Source of the DNA: Methanomassiliicoccales archaeon
Lineage (GTDB): Archaea > Thermoplasmatota > Thermoplasmata > Methanomassiliicoccales > UBA472
Assembly: GCA_035527755.1 (NCBI GenBank)
Contig: DATKZX010000025.1
Coordinates: 1-33,595, forward strand
Direction: 5' to 3'
Length of the DNA: 33,595 nt
Numbering within the stretch: position 1 is the first letter of the stretch; each line of letters opens with the position of its first letter. This document shows, piece after piece, positions 6,428 to 32,063 of the stretch. Made by a program: the position numbers and the translations under genes. The notes beneath the pieces were generated by a model. That model made no database searches, had not been told where the DNA came from, and saw only the letters and a list, made by a program, of their open reading frames with translations.

Positions 6428-7459
6428 TTACACACCTGTCAGATATCTCAATCCTATTACCAATATCGCGGACAGCAGCGTAGTGGCCGGGATGGTCATG
6501 AACCAGGACACCACCAGGTCCTTACCGACATGCCAGTGCACCATCTTGCGGTTCTCCGCCGTGCCCACTCCCATGACGCCAGAGGTCACCACCTGGGTGG
6601 AGGAGACCGGCGCCCCCATCAGCGTGGAGAACATCACCGTCAAGGCGGAGTTCGCCTGGGCGACCAGGGCGTGCACCGGCCGTATCCTGAAGATCCTACG
6701 GCCGACGGTGCGCATGATGCGGTATCCTCCACCCAAAGTGCCCAGGGCGATGGCCAGGGCGCAGGCGAAACGCACCCACAAAGGTACGTTCAGATCGGAA
6801 GAGCTGCCCATGGCCATCAGGAGCAACGCGATCAGGGCCATCTGTTTCTGGGCGTCGTTCGCCCCATGGGCCAGGGTCTGCGCTCCGGTGGTGAACCACT
6901 GCAGTCGTTTCAGGAGAACGTTGATGTCCACGGTGGCTCGGCGCAGCAGGAGGCTGGCGATCTTCATCAGGACGAACCCGCCCAGGAACCCTATGAGGAC
7001 CGAGATCATGAGGAACACCAGCACCTTGGTGACACCGGTCAGCTGTCCCCGTGTCAACGCGCTAAGCCCCCAGTTGACCCCCGACAGACCTTGGAACGAT
7101 ACGCCTACGCCGATCAGCCCGCCGATCAGGGCGTGAGTGGATGACGAAGGTATGCCGTAATACCAGGTGAAAAGGTTCCAGAGGTTGGCAGAGGCCACCG
7201 CGGCGAATATGGCCAGAGATATCTCCTGGCCTATGCCAGTGGTCAGCACTCCCTGCAATGTCAGTACCACGGCGCTGCCGCCTATCAACGCCCCTATGAA
7301 ATTGGCCAAGGAGGCGGTGAGCAGCGCTCCCTTCACCGAGGCCGCTCCCGAGGAGACCATGGTGGCCACGTCCGCCCCGGCGTCGTTGTAACCGTTGGTG
7401 AAGGCAAAGAAAAGGGACAGCAGAATGCCGGCCATGGCCAGTATCAGGAGGGCGTCCAT
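6428..7459 (-). CDS. pit: Inorganic phosphate transporter, Pit family
   Basis: A 343-residue membrane permease with about ten hydrophobic helices. It carries the two PiT signature regions: FTNGYNDAGADVATMVSSG near the N-terminus and TLAHGANDAQKQM in the middle. Pit proteins take up phosphate (often as metal-phosphate) driven by H+ or Na+; sulfate is carried by some homologues. The gene lies 10 bases after corA and directly before the DUF47 gene, which strongly supports phosphate as substrate. Pairing with a Mg2+ channel gene is sensible because Pit substrates are often neutral metal-phosphate complexes. Start ATG 7459. Confidence 0.93.
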   Translation of the reverse strand: MDALLILAMAGILLSLFFAFTNGYNDAGADVATMVSSGAASVKGALLTASLANFIGALIGGSAVVLTLQGVLTTGIGQEISLAIFAAVASANLWNLFTWYYGIPSSSTHALIGGLIGVGVSFQGLSGVNWGLSALTRGQLTGVTKVLVFLMISVLIGFLGGFVLMKIASLLLRRATVDINVLLKRLQWFTTGAQTLAHGANDAQKQMALIALLLMAMGSSSDLNVPLWVRFACALAIALGTLGGGYRIMRTVGRRIFRIRPVHALVAQANSALTVMFSTLMGAPVSSTQVVTSGVMGVGTAENRKMVHWHVGKDLVVSWFMTIPATTLLSAILVIGLRYLTGV

Positions 7460-7469
7460 CTTACCCCGT

Positions 7470-8549
7470 TCAGAGCCACCCTTTGCGGCGGAAGTAAAGC
7501 AGCAGCAGCACGGACACCCCGGTCATGCCGATCAGGACCATCGGATATGCCAGCTCGTTGTTCAGTTCCGGCATATATCTGAAGTTCATGCCGTACAGAC
7601 CGGCGATGAAGGTCAAGGGGATGAATATGGTGGCGATTATGGTCAGGGTCTTCATGATCTCGTTCATGCGGTTGCTGACGCTGGACATGTAAACGTCCAG
7701 CAGTCCGGAGAGCATGTCGGTGTAGGTGTCCACCACATCCATGACCTGTATGGAATGGTCGTAGACGTCCCGCAGATAGGTATTGGTGCTGGGCGACACC
7801 AGATCGGTGTCCTGGCGCATGAGGGCGGCGACCACCTCTCTAAGGGGCCAGATGGACTTGCGCAGGAAGATCACCTCCCGCTTCAGGCGATATATGTCAC
7901 CGAGCAGCACCGGGTCTGGATCTTCGGTCAATCTCTCCTCGATGTCCTCGACCCGGTCGCCCACCGTTTCCAGGGAGGGGTAATAATTGTCCACCACCGA
8001 GTCGATGAGGGAGTACACCAGGTAGTCGGCTCCGGACTTGCGCAGACGCCCCTTGTTGTTGCGAATACGTTCGCGTATGCTGTTGAAGACGTCACCTTCC
8101 CTTTCCTGGAACGAGAGGACGTAGTTCTTGCCCAGCACCAACGACAGCTGCTCGTAGTTGATCTCCTTGCCGTTCTCTCCACGGTAGATCATCTTGACCA
8201 CCATGTAGATGTAATCATCATAAAGCTCCAGTTTTGGGCGCTGTCCAGTGTGAAGAACGTCTTCCATGACCAGGGGGTGCAGTCCGAAGGCTTCGCCCAA
8301 CTTTCGAATGGTCTCCACATCGGACAGGCCTGAGAAGTTAAGCCACGTGGTACTGGAGCTGTCCCGCAGCGGCAGGCACTCCTCAAGGGTGATATCGGTC
8401 TTTTCCAGTACCTCGGTCTCCGTGTAGTCCAGCACCGATATCTTGGTGGCTGCGGGCGTTCCATCACCTATATAGACGAGCGATCCAGGGGGCATGCCCA
8501 CCTTCTTTGAGATCTGTCTATGCATCAATCGAAGACCTTTTATTTCCAT
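7470..8549 (-). CDS. corA: Magnesium/cobalt channel CorA
   Basis: A 359-residue CorA-family divalent cation channel of the cytoplasmic membrane. It has the large cytosolic N-terminal domain (including VMEDVLHTGQRPKLELYDDY and the conserved YSLIDSVVDNYYP), a long coiled stalk helix, and two C-terminal membrane helices. The diagnostic YGMNF selectivity motif (GMN at about 320-322) ends the first helix. A short basic tail (FRRKGWL) closes the protein. It starts four bases after the msrB stop and is followed 10 bases later by pit, forming one operon. Mg2+ is the usual substrate; Co2+ or Ni2+ are possible. Confidence 0.94.
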   Translation of the reverse strand: MEIKGLRLMHRQISKKVGMPPGSLVYIGDGTPAATKISVLDYTETEVLEKTDITLEECLPLRDSSSTTWLNFSGLSDVETIRKLGEAFGLHPLVMEDVLHTGQRPKLELYDDYIYMVVKMIYRGENGKEINYEQLSLVLGKNYVLSFQEREGDVFNSIRERIRNNKGRLRKSGADYLVYSLIDSVVDNYYPSLETVGDRVEDIEERLTEDPDPVLLGDIYRLKREVIFLRKSIWPLREVVAALMRQDTDLVSPSTNTYLRDVYDHSIQVMDVVDTYTDMLSGLLDVYMSSVSNRMNEIMKTLTIIATIFIPLTFIAGLYGMNFRYMPELNNELAYPMVLIGMTGVSVLLLLYFRRKGWL

Positions 8550-25145: not shown

Positions 25146-26069
25146 ATGGACAGGAGCGACCTCCGTCTCATCAATCTCTTGGTACACGATCCAAGGGCCA
25201 CCTATAGGGACCTGGCGGACGAGCTCGAGGTCTCTGTGCAGGCGGTACATCGTCGCGTTCAGCAGATGATCGAGGAGAAGATAATATTGGGATTCTCAGC
25301 GACCATCTCCTCCTCCTATCTGGAGGCGGTGCCGGTGACCATCTGCGGGCGGTCCCATCGCCGTACCCGCGAGGAGACGATCAAGGCCCTGGAAGGGAGC
25401 GATCTCGTCTCCAGTGTGCTTTTTGGCAGCGGGGGCATCGTCCATGTCTATTGCACGCTGCGTCGGAGCAGCGAGCTGGACGGGCTTTTCGAGTTCGTAA
25501 GGAACGCCGCGCTCCTAAAGGACGCGTGGATCGGCTTGGAGGCCGTTCCAAGATCGGGAAAGGAACCGGCCACCATACACGATGAGCCGCTGACCCCCTT
25601 GGACAGACGCGTGATCTCCTCCCTGGTCAAGGACGGAAGGAAGGCATCGGCCGAAGTGGCGAAGGAACTGGGGGTCACGGCGGCCACGGTGAACAGGCGC
25701 TTGGACCGTTTGAACAGGATCGGGGCCATCGAATACGCGGTCGCGCTCCACCCTGGTTTCTCCGGGGATATAGTGTCGATCATCAGCATAGAACTGGTCG
25801 AGGGATCGGACCGGGGAGCTAAGATCGCGGCCATGAGGAACTCGCTGGGGGCCACGGTCGATTACTATCGGACGTTCAGCAATGTTCCGGGGATGTTCAC
25901 CTGCGTCTCCTGGACCAAGACGCTGAAGGACCTGGAGATGCTCACGAACGATATTTTGAAGGACAGCGATGTGCTCAAGGCGGTGCCGGACATCATATTC
26001 ACCGGTTGGTACCACTCCAATTGGAAGGATATCATGGCGATGGACGTCACCCATCCCAAAGGTCAGTAG
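25146..26069 (+). CDS. Double winged-helix AsnC/Lrp-type transcriptional regulator
   Basis: A 307-residue protein with two AsnC-type helix-turn-helix units. The first is at about 3-50 (RLINLLVHDPRATYRDLADE and SVQAVHRRVQQM). The second is at about 150-195 (RRVISSLVKDGRKASAEVAK and TAATVNRRLDRLNRIGAI). Each is followed by a ligand-domain-like stretch of beta strands. Such duplicated Lrp-like proteins are common in Thermoplasmata and halophilic or methanogenic archaea. The regulated genes are unknown; the downstream membrane/flavoprotein set starts 134 bases later and could be a target. It ends in TAG. Confidence 0.85.
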   Translation: MDRSDLRLINLLVHDPRATYRDLADELEVSVQAVHRRVQQMIEEKIILGFSATISSSYLEAVPVTICGRSHRRTREETIKALEGSDLVSSVLFGSGGIVHVYCTLRRSSELDGLFEFVRNAALLKDAWIGLEAVPRSGKEPATIHDEPLTPLDRRVISSLVKDGRKASAEVAKELGVTAATVNRRLDRLNRIGAIEYAVALHPGFSGDIVSIISIELVEGSDRGAKIAAMRNSLGATVDYYRTFSNVPGMFTCVSWTKTLKDLEMLTNDILKDSDVLKAVPDIIFTGWYHSNWKDIMAMDVTHPKGQ

Positions 26070-26203
26070 GCCAGACGATTGTTATCGACACCTCCGGACC
26101 ATCATTTTTCAACATCATGGTTGAGGAACATGATATTATTGTAATTAGGTCGCGATGGAACATCAACCGCGGTGTGAACACAGGGATATCACCCCCTTCT
26201 AGG

Positions 26204-26713
26204 ATGGGTAGGATAGGCAGGCGAAGAACGCCTGTCGTCAGGGTGATACGTTTGGTCAAGGAAAAGATATCAGAAATAAGCGGTCGGAAGGGCATACGGG
26301 GCGTCGCATCGTTGGCCGGGCCGTTCCTGATGGTCCATGGCGTCATGCACATCATACTGCTCCTGTCCCCTCGTGAGAACGGGGGGCCGGGCAATTTCCT
26401 CACTCAGAACGGGACCTCGTGGCTACTCGATGGTCTTGGAATGGATGCTGCGAGCATCGATCTCTTTGGTACCGCATTGGTGCTGGTGGCGGCTTTGGGG
26501 CTGATCACCGGTTCGTTCGGGCTCATATGCAAGATGAGAACGGTCGTATGGAGAGATGCGGTCCTGGTGTCCAGCGTGCTATCTTTGTTCTTCATGATGG
26601 CGTTCTGGTCCGATTGGTTCGTCGCAGGCGCGGCCATAGACATCGCAGCGATCGCATTGGCGCTAAAGTACAGGCCGATGACAGGATCGGTCCCAGAGAA
26701 GGTGGCACTGTGA
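26204..26713 (+). CDS. Multi-pass membrane protein, first of a three-gene overlapping set
   Basis: About 169 residues with four hydrophobic segments: ASLAGPFLMVHGVMHIILLL, then LFGTALVLVAALGLITGSFG, then VLVSSVLSLFFMMAFW and FVAGAAIDIAAIALAL. A basic N-terminus precedes the first. No specific family is claimed; the general plan (HG-MH, then SWLL) resembles small bacterial membrane proteins of unknown role. The start is uncertain: ATG 26204 is chosen because a TATA-like TGATATTATTGTAATT lies at about 26129-26144, but ATG 26117 is also in frame. The stop TGA overlaps the GTG start of the next gene. Confidence 0.68.
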   Translation: MGRIGRRRTPVVRVIRLVKEKISEISGRKGIRGVASLAGPFLMVHGVMHIILLLSPRENGGPGNFLTQNGTSWLLDGLGMDAASIDLFGTALVLVAALGLITGSFGLICKMRTVVWRDAVLVSSVLSLFFMMAFWSDWFVAGAAIDIAAIALALKYRPMTGSVPEKVAL

Positions 26714-27495
26714 AAGTACTGGTGATAATGGGCAGCCCCCGGAAGGAGGGGACCGGGTCCAGGGCAGTAAAGGCGATCGAGAGCAGGCTGGCAACGCATG
26801 GGCCGGTCCAACTTGAGGTCCTGAGGCTGAAGGATGCGAACCTGGGGCAGTGCAGAGGCTGCTTCCAGTGCATTAGCAGGGGCGAGGAACTGTGTCCGAT
26901 GAGAAAGGAGATCGTCGCCGTCGAGGAAATGATCGAGGCCGCGGACGGAGTGATACTGGTATCCCCCGGCTACGTGCAGAACGTCAGCGGTCTGATGAAG
27001 AACTTCATGGACCGTATCGCCTACACCAATCATCGTCCCCGCTTCTTCGGGAAGAAGGTCATGATAGTGGCGAACGGAGGGTCGGGGCTGGCGAAGACAT
27101 TGGACGCGCTCCGGATAGCGATCGGAGGTCCTGAGGTCGTCAGCGAGCTGGAATACACGCAGCTCCCCTGGCCGATGCAGGAAAGATCGATAGTGAAGCG
27201 CCGGGCGGACCTCGAAAAGGCGGTCGACAAATTCTATAAGGCCCTGCAGGTCAAGGACATGAGACCCAGTTTCAACAATTACATGCGTTTCCTCTTCTTA
27301 AAGGGCGCATCGGTCGAAGCGAAGGAATGGCTGCCCGCCGATCACGAGTTCTATAGGGACCTGGACCGCTACTATTATGATGTGGACGTCGGGATGGGAA
27401 TGAGGATCAAGGCGTCGTTGCTCATGCCCGTGGCGAAGTTCTTCATGAGGGGCATGGCCCCCCAAAGGGATGGTGCCGATGGCAGTGATCGATGA
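26710..27495 (+). CDS. Iron-sulfur flavoprotein / NADPH-dependent FMN reductase family
   Basis: The flavodoxin-like N-terminus VLVIMGSPRKEGTGSRAV binds the FMN phosphate. It is followed by the compact cluster motif C48-x2-C51-x2-C54-x7-C62 (LGQCRGCFQC), which matches the archaeal iron-sulfur flavoprotein (Isf) pattern. VSPGYVQNVSGLMKNFMDR is the second FMN-contact region. Isf proteins handle O2 or H2O2 and pass electrons from ferredoxin. At 261 residues it is longer than a plain Isf: the last 90 residues (from about FNNYMRFLFLKGASVEAKEW) are an extension. The GTG start at 26710 overlaps the stop of the membrane protein (GTGA), so translation is coupled. Confidence 0.85.
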   Translation: MKVLVIMGSPRKEGTGSRAVKAIESRLATHGPVQLEVLRLKDANLGQCRGCFQCISRGEELCPMRKEIVAVEEMIEAADGVILVSPGYVQNVSGLMKNFMDRIAYTNHRPRFFGKKVMIVANGGSGLAKTLDALRIAIGGPEVVSELEYTQLPWPMQERSIVKRRADLEKAVDKFYKALQVKDMRPSFNNYMRFLFLKGASVEAKEWLPADHEFYRDLDRYYYDVDVGMGMRIKASLLMPVAKFFMRGMAPQRDGADGSDR

Positions 27496-27775
27496 ACCGT
27501 TCGAGCTCATCCTCGAGAGCGAGCGGGTGAGGCTGGGAAAGGTCGATCGTCCGGACGGAAAGGTATCGATCGAGGTGATGGTGCTGTTGATGCGTCCTTC
27601 ATCGAGCATCGAACACTCGAGGTTACGACGAACAGCGGACACGGTGGAACGGCTTGGTGGAATGGGCATCACGATGATCTTTCTCGAAGGCGGGTGGGCA
27701 GTGGGCGAGCTGACCGTTCCATCGGGAAGGTCGGAGGAGAGCGTTTCCAAGATCAGGGACATACTATCGGTTTAA
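27479..27775 (+). CDS. Small protein, third of the overlapping set
   Basis: A 98-residue soluble protein (MAVIDEPFELILESERVRLG) with alternating strands and helices; near the end is TMIFLEGGWAVGELTVPSG. Not recognised. It overlaps the end of the flavoprotein gene by 17 bases. Two in-frame ATGs are possible (27470 and 27479); the second has AAAGGGA at a better distance. The overlaps suggest the three genes act in one process, perhaps membrane-associated redox chemistry. Confidence 0.65.
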   Translation: MAVIDEPFELILESERVRLGKVDRPDGKVSIEVMVLLMRPSSSIEHSRLRRTADTVERLGGMGITMIFLEGGWAVGELTVPSGRSEESVSKIRDILSV

Positions 27776-27851
27776 AAATTCAAGTTGGGCTGAGCTCTGA
27801 ACTTCCTGCGATCCGACCAGATGGGAAGACCTTATCGGCTTGAGCGAACGA

Positions 27852-29168
27852 TCAGATCCTTATCTGGGAGAACATGGTGTTCCTCATCACCGCGTTCCGC
27901 ATCCGGTCCCGCTCGATGCCAAGCTCCTTGAGCAGGCACAGCTCCAGCATCAATCGTAGCCGCATCGTCGCCAACACCAGATCGCTTCCTTTCAGGACCA
28001 TGTCATCACCGTTGCCCTCCAAATGTGTCAGATGGTTCCTGGTCCGGGTGAGCTGGAAAACGAACTTCTTCCTATCGTCCACGAACTCGTCCATGGTTTC
28101 ACGAAGATCATCATAGATCTCTTTCAGCCGCTGACCGTGGGAAGGCTCATTGCTGTACTCCAACCCGTCCCTCATCCACTCCCGGTACTGCTCAGGTATG
28201 CTTTCCAGAATGACCGCCACGCGTCTCCGGTGCTCCTCCGGTTCCACTTCGAAATTGCGGTAGCGGTGACGGTGGTAGGCTTCGATGGCCTGCATGTACA
28301 TCAGGAAACGGGTCGCCTGGAACAGCTCGGCGCTCTGCGAGGCGGCGAAATAGAGGTCCAGGACCTGCGTCATGTTCTCGTTGATGGCGAACCATTTGGA
28401 TACCATGTTCCCCATGTCCGCCCCGATGCTGCTCAATGGCAGGAGCATGTCCTCAAGTTCCAGCGGGTTCGCCTCCCGATCGTTGGCGAAGGATGGATAG
28501 AAGACCTCCACCTTCATTTTCGAACCGTCATCGTCCGCACCTCTTCCAACGGCGCCCCAGACCCTCACCTCGTGGGTCGACCGGTGCATGAACAGCGCCA
28601 TCAGATTGCGCAGCTGGCGCACCATCTCGATCCCCTGGTCAAGGCCTATTTCGTTATTGAGGTCCATGGTCAATCGGCAGGAGCCGTCGCCCTCGGACCC
28701 GATGATCAGCTTTCCGATGACACCTATGTCGCAATCAAGTGCGAGCGCCCTTGGCAGAGAAGGCGCCGGTCCAGGTTCCATCCCCTTTACCCAGTCCGTA
28801 AGATAGGAGAGATCGATGGTCAATCCTTTGAACTCGATCTCTTCCTGCGAGCCATAGTGCTTTCCGATCACCAGTACGTCAGCGCAGAGGGCGGAGCAGG
28901 TAGGGACGTCCGGCTCACCGTCATCCACGATGCGGTAGGGGTGCTCCAACCAGATGCCGCTCGATCCGATCAGGGTTATCGCCCTTCCGTCAACGGTCTC
29001 CCCGAGCACGATCTTGAAGGGTATGGCGCAGGTATCGCTCTCCCTGAGCATCCCGCCCAGGTTCAGGATGGCGCCCTTGGACGGGTCGAAGTTCATATCT
29101 CCGGTGATGACATTGTCCGGGTAGGCAGGGGTCCACCATTTTCCTTTGAGAACGAACGCTTCCTTCAT
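27852..29168 (-). CDS. ApeA-like HEPN protein (putative anti-phage RNase)
   Basis: A 438-residue protein in two parts. The N-terminal 280 residues are beta-rich and begin EAFVLKGKWWTPAYPDNVIT, then GDMNFDPSKGAILNLGGML, which resembles the ApeA N-terminal domain. The C-terminal third is helical and carries the HEPN active-site pattern R-N-x3-H (R377, N378, H382 in TRTRNHLTHLE), as in Apea-type HEPN domains. Known biology: ApeA is a single-gene anti-phage system; HEPN domains with this motif are usually RNases that act in abortive infection. Function here is inferred. The ATG at 29168 with AGGATGA upstream is preferred; an in-frame TTG at 29219 would add 17 residues. No restriction or CRISPR genes lie beside it. 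Confidence 0.72.
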   Translation of the reverse strand: MKEAFVLKGKWWTPAYPDNVITGDMNFDPSKGAILNLGGMLRESDTCAIPFKIVLGETVDGRAITLIGSSGIWLEHPYRIVDDGEPDVPTCSALCADVLVIGKHYGSQEEIEFKGLTIDLSYLTDWVKGMEPGPAPSLPRALALDCDIGVIGKLIIGSEGDGSCRLTMDLNNEIGLDQGIEMVRQLRNLMALFMHRSTHEVRVWGAVGRGADDDGSKMKVEVFYPSFANDREANPLELEDMLLPLSSIGADMGNMVSKWFAINENMTQVLDLYFAASQSAELFQATRFLMYMQAIEAYHRHRYRNFEVEPEEHRRRVAVILESIPEQYREWMRDGLEYSNEPSHGQRLKEIYDDLRETMDEFVDDRKKFVFQLTRTRNHLTHLEGNGDDMVLKGSDLVLATMRLRLMLELCLLKELGIERDRMRNAVMRNTMFSQIRI

Positions 29169-29219
29169 GTTATCATCCTGTATGAGCCATAAGCCGTAGG
29201 TAACTGCGACCTTGGCCAA

Positions 29220-29535
29220 CCATCGCTTCCGGTCCTAACACCATCATCGTGCAGCTATAACGTATCCGGGGTGCTAATTAATTGGTATTGCGACCCAAGA
29301 GGTCCACTTCCTTTATGTGGAGTTGTTAGAACAATATGTTCGTACAAGCGGCATAATCGATGCTATCGGGGATCATCACTGACACTCCAGGACCACCTAG
29401 GGCCGACGGAGTGAGATCACATGCCACCATTCGGATCATCATCAAGGCTCAGGTGGCAATGAGGAAATCGCCCCGTCATCATCTTTCTCATCTGTAGATC
29501 AGTGAAAAAAGAAAAAGATTTGAAAGAGGTTTGGC
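29220..29535. promoter_or_regulatory. Intergenic region upstream of the ApeA-like gene
   Basis: No gene is supported. On the minus strand CGTTATAGC (about 29254-29262) is a possible TATA box for the ApeA-like gene. A hairpin TTGT-TA-GAACA-ATA-TGTTC-GT-ACAA lies at 29324-29347. A longer hairpin, TGCCACC/GGTGGCA, is at 29422-29428 and 29452-29458. Confidence 0.4.
29504..29532 (-). terminator. T-rich terminator of the secreted protease gene
   Basis: Starting three bases after the TGA, the minus strand reads AAACCTCTTTC and then AAATCTTTTTCTTTTTTC. It combines the recurring AAACCTCTTT word with two T-runs. Confidence 0.6.
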
Positions 29536-31683
29536 TCAGCCTTTGAGCAGACCGAATCTGTAGTTGGTCGGTCCGGCGTCCGAAGATATGATGATGTACA
29601 CATCTTTGTATCCGGAGAAACCCGCGAGATTCTGTATGATGGTCTCGGTATCATCCGCCAGGTTCAGAACCATCATATTGTACGGCAGCGAAAAAGCACC
29701 ATTTCTATACGCTGGAGCGTAGATGGTGACCGAGAAGTCGACCTCTACAGGCGGCTGCATCGATACGAAGGACAGCACATCATCACCATTATCGACGATC
29801 TCTCCATTGATGGCGATGTTGTCCACGAACCAGCCCTGCTCTGTGTAGCCCCAATCGGTCATGTACCGGAAGGCGATCAACACTTCACCGCCGACATGAT
29901 CGGTCAGATCGAACGCCATGTTCCCAGAACCGGATCCGGTCAATCCAGGCAGGTTATCCGCGATGTCCGGGTGGCCATCATAGACAAGGTCATAGGTGGT
30001 ATGATCGTTCTCCAGCGAGGTCCAGGTGGTTCCACCATCCGTCGATATCTGCACGAAACCGAAGTCCCAATTCTCTTCGATCGCATAGTAGGTATCGAAG
30101 GTGAGGGTCGCCTCGGTCATACCGCTCAGGTCGACCGTTCCAACGATGGAGACGTCCCTGAGGTCGCTAGCACCCGAATACCAGGCCATGCCTGAGATCC
30201 CTGGAACAGCAGGGCCGGCAGCGAGCTTCCAACCCGGTTCGTATTTATCATTGCCGTCGAACACAAAGTTGAGATCGCGCAGCTCTCCGACCCGTACTCC
30301 CTGGACCTTAAGGTAGTCAGTACCGTACGGTCCCAGCAGATAGGTTCCGGTATTGTACCCGTCCTGGGTCCAAGTGTATTGGAAGGCGTAGGACTGGGTA
30401 ACGAAACCCATCCCCGGCTTGATCTTCAAGGTGGTCAGCTCTCCCGCCTGAGGGTCGTTCAGATCGATCGATACGTAATTGTACCAGCCATCACCGAAGT
30501 CGTCGGTATGGACCAGGTTGGCCATTTTCCACGCATCGAACACCCTATCGAAGTCCCAATCCCCATAGCCAGCTGAGGCCAGGGTCGCGGTCACTCCCTC
30601 TTCACCGTTGGCCGGATTGGCCGCTAGTGCGGAGATGAAGTCCGCTCCTCCGAAGTGGTCATTTAGGTATACGGCGAACATCGCAGCCGCGCCGTAATCG
30701 GCGATGATGTTGATGTCACCCTGGTCGCCCCACTCGGTCAAGGAGTTGTCCGGGGTGAACAGGAACTGCTCGATGTATCCCCACGGGATGCCGTAGCCGC
30801 AAAGCATCTCCGAGTACATTGAGCAACCCTCGTTGACGAAGGACACCTCATCCGCGTCCAGATCGTCGTGCAGCAGGTGCTGGTACTCGTGAGCGACGGT
30901 CGATTCGTATACGTACGGTCGGGCTACGTCGGCACCGAGCCTGTTCGTCCAGTCATAGCTGTCGAGGTGTATGACATTTCGATCATAGTAAACCTCGATG
31001 GACGGTGAATAATAGCCGACGACATAGCTCGGATAGGTCGGATCGTAATAGCTGTTATCGACCATGTTCCAGACCATGATCATCAGCTTTCCATCGACAT
31101 CGTCGAAGAAGGGATAGCCCCATCCCTCAAAGACGGAGTTCGATCCGTCATGGAACGTGGGCGTTCCGAAGTAATCCGACTCTATGGGTAAGATGACCTC
31201 TTCATACTCAGTAATGAGGTAATCGATCTGCCAGTCGTATATGGTGATCTTGCTCGGAACGTCGTTACGCGGGTCGCCGTCGGGGAAGCTCAGGTCTGTG
31301 GCGACCCATACCTCCACCTCGCTGCCCTCTCCCCTCTTCTCGAACTCAATAAAATTACTTGGTCCGTATCCGTTCACATAATAGTCCTCTGTATCGCCGA
31401 TCTCATATACGTCGGCCGAGCCAGATCGCAAGGATATCTCCGAAGCTGCGGCCAAGACCTCAGTCGGGTTAGGTTGCAGTTCTCGGACCTCTGGTCCAAT
31501 ATCCATTTTCACTACGTCAGCGATCCTCGGGACGGCCGAGGTCGTTGCGGCACCGGGCACAGCCATTGCCGAGAAGGCCCCTATGACCATCAGCATAGCT
31601 AGTGCTAAACACAATATCTTTGATATTTTCAGTTGAATCCCCCCTATGATCGGACCCTCGAAAAAGGCCCATCCTAAATTCAT
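29536..31683 (-). CDS. Secreted HExxH zinc metalloprotease, immune inhibitor A-like
   Basis: About 715 residues. A hydrophobic signal sequence (LKISKILCLALAMLMVIGAF) ends near an AVPGAATTSA cleavage region. The zinc site is H265-E-Y-Q-H269, with a likely third ligand E285 in FVNEGCSMYSE. After the catalytic part come beta-rich domains, one MAM/jelly-roll-like (FGFVQISTDGGTTWTSLEND ... GWFVDNIAI). The layout resembles M6-type secreted peptidases. It is probably exported for protein degradation outside the cell. The first ATG (31683) leaves an odd 17-residue lead; a CTG at 31632 with AGGGGGGA five bases upstream would begin exactly at the signal peptide (KISKILCLALAML). A TATA box, TTTATAAATT, is near 31713-31722. 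Confidence 0.83.
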   Translation of the reverse strand: MNLGWAFFEGPIIGGIQLKISKILCLALAMLMVIGAFSAMAVPGAATTSAVPRIADVVKMDIGPEVRELQPNPTEVLAAASEISLRSGSADVYEIGDTEDYYVNGYGPSNFIEFEKRGEGSEVEVWVATDLSFPDGDPRNDVPSKITIYDWQIDYLITEYEEVILPIESDYFGTPTFHDGSNSVFEGWGYPFFDDVDGKLMIMVWNMVDNSYYDPTYPSYVVGYYSPSIEVYYDRNVIHLDSYDWTNRLGADVARPYVYESTVAHEYQHLLHDDLDADEVSFVNEGCSMYSEMLCGYGIPWGYIEQFLFTPDNSLTEWGDQGDINIIADYGAAAMFAVYLNDHFGGADFISALAANPANGEEGVTATLASAGYGDWDFDRVFDAWKMANLVHTDDFGDGWYNYVSIDLNDPQAGELTTLKIKPGMGFVTQSYAFQYTWTQDGYNTGTYLLGPYGTDYLKVQGVRVGELRDLNFVFDGNDKYEPGWKLAAGPAVPGISGMAWYSGASDLRDVSIVGTVDLSGMTEATLTFDTYYAIEENWDFGFVQISTDGGTTWTSLENDHTTYDLVYDGHPDIADNLPGLTGSGSGNMAFDLTDHVGGEVLIAFRYMTDWGYTEQGWFVDNIAINGEIVDNGDDVLSFVSMQPPVEVDFSVTIYAPAYRNGAFSLPYNMMVLNLADDTETIIQNLAGFSGYKDVYIIISSDAGPTNYRFGLLKG

Positions 31684-31926
31684 TCTCTCGAATGATAATT
31701 AATAGTTCCGATTTCAATTTATAAAAAGGAAGAACATAAAAATAGGGTACTTTGAGGTTCTAAAATGGGGCTCGTCGAATAGACGTTGCGACGCATCCAT
31801 ATTGTAGAAATTAATCCCAGGAATTGAAATATCGGCTCCAACCCCTTCTTTTTATTAACATTATTTTATATTCAATTTATCAATGGTTCACAAGAAAATG
31901 CCGCCCAATTTCTTACATTTTCCAAC

Positions 31927-31944
31927 CAGTTATTTGGTTAACTG
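31927..31944 (+). promoter_or_regulatory. Palindrome 1 upstream of the second helicase
   Basis: CAGTTA-N6-TAACTG is a perfect inverted repeat. An overlapping AACCA-N6-TGGTT (31924-31939) shares its middle. It lies about 25-40 bases upstream of the TATA box, where an activator would bind. Confidence 0.5.
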
Positions 31945-31950
31945 TCGTTT

Positions 31951-31968
31951 CGCACATCAATTTGTGCG
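31951..31968 (+). promoter_or_regulatory. Palindrome 2 upstream of the second helicase
   Basis: CGCACA-N6-TGTGCG is a perfect inverted repeat with the same 6-6-6 layout as the first. The centres are 24 bases apart, a little over two helical turns. It abuts the TATA box at 31970. Confidence 0.5.
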
Positions 31969-32063
31969 CACATTTAAATACAATAATCGCAAACACCATT
32001 TAGAAATTAAAGTTCGTCTGTGAGATCTTACAGACCGTTTTATTTTCTCACAGAGTGAATATC

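Follow-up and report, generated by a model that had tools for sequence, protein, structure and literature searches.

The window, by which we mean the whole stretch of 33,595 nucleotides analyzed here, comes from a member of the Methanomassiliicoccales and encodes a 438-residue protein of the ApeA family, which is probably a stand-alone antiviral sensor-effector specified by a single gene. This one-protein reading is favored by the family to which it belongs, its invariant motif and its two-part build. To our knowledge, few archaeal defense systems have been tested. A compact one-gene RNase system in Thermoplasmatota, a lineage with little CRISPR-Cas (PMC12988326), would be a convenient test case for whether growth-arrest defense of the bacterial type operates in archaea.

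Domain architecture, conserved motif and predicted structure

The gene lies on the minus strand (27852..29168), with its ATG at 29168 and its stop codon ending at 27852. A Shine-Dalgarno-like sequence, AGGATGAT, can be read directly 5' of this ATG, and an in-frame TTG is found upstream at 29219. The codon usage is ordinary for the genome (GC3 0.774, codon fit 0.199) and within the range of the neighboring genes. An earlier reading of the DNA (the original prediction) had described a lone archaeal gene coding for a two-domain ApeA-family HEPN protein with a likely role in defense. This part of it stands on the evidence of Pfam, PADLOC and our alignment, and the peptide it quoted from the N-terminal region, WWTPAYPDNVITGDM, is found at residues 11-25. 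Profile searches recovered the HEPN_Apea domain (PF18739) with an E-value of 2.8e-30 (105.9 bits against a cut-off of 24.4) and, to its N-terminus, ApeA_NTD1 (PF18862) with an E-value of 1.4e-24 (87.4 bits against a cut-off of 25.5). These scores exceed the curated cut-offs of both models by a wide margin, which excludes a chance match; the original prediction thereby survives its own refutation check, the absence of a match to either profile. The ApeA_NTD1 region, which is beta-rich and presumably the sensor or inhibitory part, spans approximately residues 8-259 (28392..29147, minus strand), with the strands of the structural model at residues 5-174. It is matched in two stretches, corresponding to profile positions 3-115 and 180-271, because most homologues have a longer middle portion. 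The presumed RNase, the all-helical HEPN_Apea domain, follows at residues 289-421 (27906..28304, minus strand).

Searches with PADLOC matched PDC-S58 (1.9e-73, the best by E-value) and Cas13-ApeA (4.5e-39); the homologues that match one also match the other, and 'Cas13-ApeA' is that resource's name for the ApeA class. No NCBIfam model matches the 438-residue protein. Identity with Cas13 of the type VI CRISPR systems was ruled out: the protein has one HEPN domain only, rather than two, and no Rfam family matches positions 26000-32000 of the window at the gathering threshold. By the same search, there is no match in this interval to an RNA comparable to the non-coding partner of AbiF.

To characterize the motif we used an alignment of 14 homologues, drawn from Methanomassiliicoccales, one haloarchaeon, Bacillota, Pseudomonadota and one cyanobacterium, all 14 of which match both Pfam ApeA domains. 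Setting aside two close archaeal relatives, its members are just 18-24% identical to the window protein, and only 12 columns are invariant; the window protein keeps every one of these residues. The R-N-x3-H motif that had been proposed at 377-382 is present (R377, N378 and H382; R-N-H-L-T-H in full; 28023..28040, minus strand), and both R377 and H382 are among the invariant positions. Such invariance amid so much divergence is the pattern that would be expected of an active site.

An AlphaFold2 model based on nine sequences has a mean pLDDT of 76, with the C-terminal helical domain at about 90 and the beta-rich N-terminal part of mixed confidence; modeled alone, the C-terminal domain is all-helical with a mean pLDDT of 86.5. 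The two putative catalytic residues are not far apart in the model, being placed, five residues from each other, at the end of a single predicted helix (366-382). Foldseek searches with the full model (against PDB and viral models) and with the HEPN domain alone returned no significant match. The top two rows of the HEPN-only search are 4nqf, 'HEPN domain protein' (E 0.46, probability 0.85, not significant), with Csm6 and AbiV chains further down the list, none of them significant; the HEPN names near the top do not count as proof. A sequence search of solved structures likewise found none that matches the protein.

Relation to known systems and proposed mode of action

ApeA itself is reportedly a HEPN one-gene anti-phage system, attributed to Gao et al. 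in 2020. The window protein resembles it in the order of ApeA_NTD1 and HEPN_Apea, in being encoded by a single gene, in the intact R-x4-H motif and in matching both Cas13-ApeA models of PADLOC; this likeness is drawn from profiles and homologues rather than from the experimentally tested E. coli protein. It differs in being archaeal, in its identity of only about 20% to the bacterial members and in the shortened middle of its N-terminal domain (profile positions from 115 to 180 are unmatched). PDC-S58, although the best PADLOC match, is a putative candidate class for which we found no experimental test in the literature searched.

The original prediction further held that an archaeal homologue would extend the family, and here it was anticipated: the family is already recorded in archaea. 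A 2013 survey gives the phyletic pattern of ApeA/BMEI1217 as 'Bacteria > Archaea' (PMC3710099), and three haloarchaeal plasmids (from Halanaeroarchaeum, Halomicrobium and Halocatena) carry full-length homologues with both Pfam domains. The latter, annotated as 'HEPN domain-containing proteins', are likewise archaeal and encoded by single genes; they differ from the window protein in their plasmid location, and the Halanaeroarchaeum protein is about 22% identical to it and falls outside its clade in the tree. The gene is thus a well-supported addition to a family that already reaches archaea. A single trait sets the window protein apart: its N-terminal domain has a shortened middle, which leaves room for a different trigger. 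It is conceivable, though unlikely, that the Methanomassiliicoccales clade, with this shortened domain and its long separation from the other members, senses an infection signal unlike that of the bacterial enzymes and tied to archaeal viruses.

As a stand-alone sensor-effector, the protein might operate as follows. In the uninfected cell the beta-rich N-terminal domain would hold the HEPN domain inactive; upon infection, a virus-made or virus-provoked signal would bind this domain, and two HEPN domains would then come together in a composite active site containing R377 and H382. The activated enzyme would cut cellular or viral RNA, tRNA being a likely target, whereupon translation would halt, and the virus with it, leaving the cell in growth arrest. 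Regarding the trigger, a lead comes from the title of a 2026 preprint, according to which deoxydinucleotides are said to activate bacterial ApeA. By analogy with the family, an abortive-infection role may be proposed for the protein. In comparable Abi proteins, the N-terminal domain may serve as a built-in inhibitor (PMC3710099), and HEPN enzymes are homodimeric RNases, one of which cleaves tRNA (PMC13405049).

Phyletic distribution and mobility

The closest relatives, at 63-64% identity, come from two archaeal genomes, which are metagenome-assembled genomes of Methanomassiliicoccaceae archaeon from fen samples. All nine congeners searched lack the gene, and HEPN_Apea is found in 4 of the 147 genomes of the order (~3%). 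The gene is present in genomes G014 and G017, while the copy in G010 (58% identity) is cut by a contig end and that in G043 is divergent (26%). Across 390 genomes of the phylum, matches were limited to the genome of the window and one other (G334), whose copy is broken. In three genera of a single family (g1, g2 and g6) the gene occupies different loci: G014 and G017 share one that is unlike that of the window, and in G010 yet another set of genes lies alongside.

This patchiness bears on the possibility that the protein is an active HEPN RNase with a job in host RNA processing or regulation, kept as an ordinary chromosomal gene. The codon usage and GC content, which fit the host genome, and the chromosomal housekeeping surroundings in the window agree with such a role; however, it does not explain why the nine congeners and some 97% of the order lack the gene, and we consider it very improbable. 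The host-like composition suggests that the gene, if acquired, came either not recently or from a similar donor. The phylogenetic tree places the three close archaeal proteins together with strong support (100/100); its deeper forks are open, so that the direction of transfer, including an origin from bacteria, is not read from it. We also attempted an empty-site comparison with G006, a congener that has a peptidase 78% identical to that of the window; as the genes beyond the peptidase differ, insertion of the ApeA-family gene alone is not demonstrable.

Single-gene homologues are found on plasmids, adjoining integrases and IS elements, as well as in IMG/VR contigs. The window protein itself has no match in viral contigs, a phage collection or PHROGs, and no virus carrying its clade was found in them. 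The broken homologue in G334 (L052 2485-3827, minus strand) is split over two frames with stops, next to hydrogenase-like genes, and is either a pseudogene or an assembly error. Accordingly, decay may occur in these genes, and the window copy might itself be a transferred defense gene that is decaying and has lost its function. Its open reading frame, by contrast, is intact, with a good ribosome-binding site, all family-invariant residues and normal codon usage, making this extremely unlikely.

Genomic neighborhoods

The neighbors in the window are housekeeping genes; they code for an FMN reductase, a peptidase resembling immune inhibitor A, a helicase of the DEAD-box type, a regulator and transporters. 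No specific defense gene lies beside the ApeA-family gene in the window, the HTH, DEAD and ABC matches being to generic domains. The redox and protease neighbors do not accompany the gene from locus to locus and are thus uninformative. The peptidase (29536-31683, minus strand) is predicted to be secreted and has a MAM-type domain; a second copy is encoded elsewhere in the genome (G000:C4) and its relatives are common in the family. An open reading frame for 101 amino acids (27470-27775, plus strand) overlaps the FMN reductase gene at its end; having no Pfam or PADLOC match and a weak codon fit, it may not be a gene.

In G043, from the same order, the C-terminal half of Avs2 (6.6e-186) is encoded by an open reading frame that runs off the contig; the divergent homologue is located downstream of it on the same strand, at a distance of 209 bp, and is also near PDC-M36A (6.5e-216). 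Together these constitute a defense island at L051 (11021-13150, minus strand, and 7092-8459, plus strand). The Halanaeroarchaeum homologue adjoins a PDC-S31-like gene. The defense reading is supported by both domains, the intact invariant motif, the patchy single-gene distribution, the mobile settings of homologues and the Avs2 linkage of a same-order relative; weighing against it, that linkage is seen only in a relative of 26% identity, the window gene has no adjoining defense gene, and neither the sequence search of solved structures nor Foldseek gave a significant match.

These contexts also speak to the alternative that the protein belongs to a toxin-antitoxin or stress-response module as its HEPN toxin, the RNase serving dormancy or element maintenance rather than antiviral defense. 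HEPN proteins are often toxins, and of the homologues on plasmids some adjoin toxin-antitoxin genes. However, no partner gene recurs beside the homologues at the loci examined in archaea and bacteria, nor is there a conserved antitoxin gene at any of them; moreover, the protein has its own N-terminal domain and the nearest defense model is a single-gene one. We therefore regard a toxin as distinctly unlikely and retain the one-gene sensor-effector as the preferred reading.

Bacterial homologues adjoin integrases, transposases or phage genes. In a Bacillus subtilis plasmid record (L019 3971-5389 and 5636-6935) the homologue is directly upstream of aimR/aimP, a lysis-lysogeny peptide system, which suggests that the carrier is a temperate-phage-like element. 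Plasmids of enterococci widely carry a divergent ApeA-type protein (Enterococcus faecalis; 33 records from Enterococcus), and at the one such locus read (L027) its gene is flanked by an integrase on one side and an IS30 transposase on the other.
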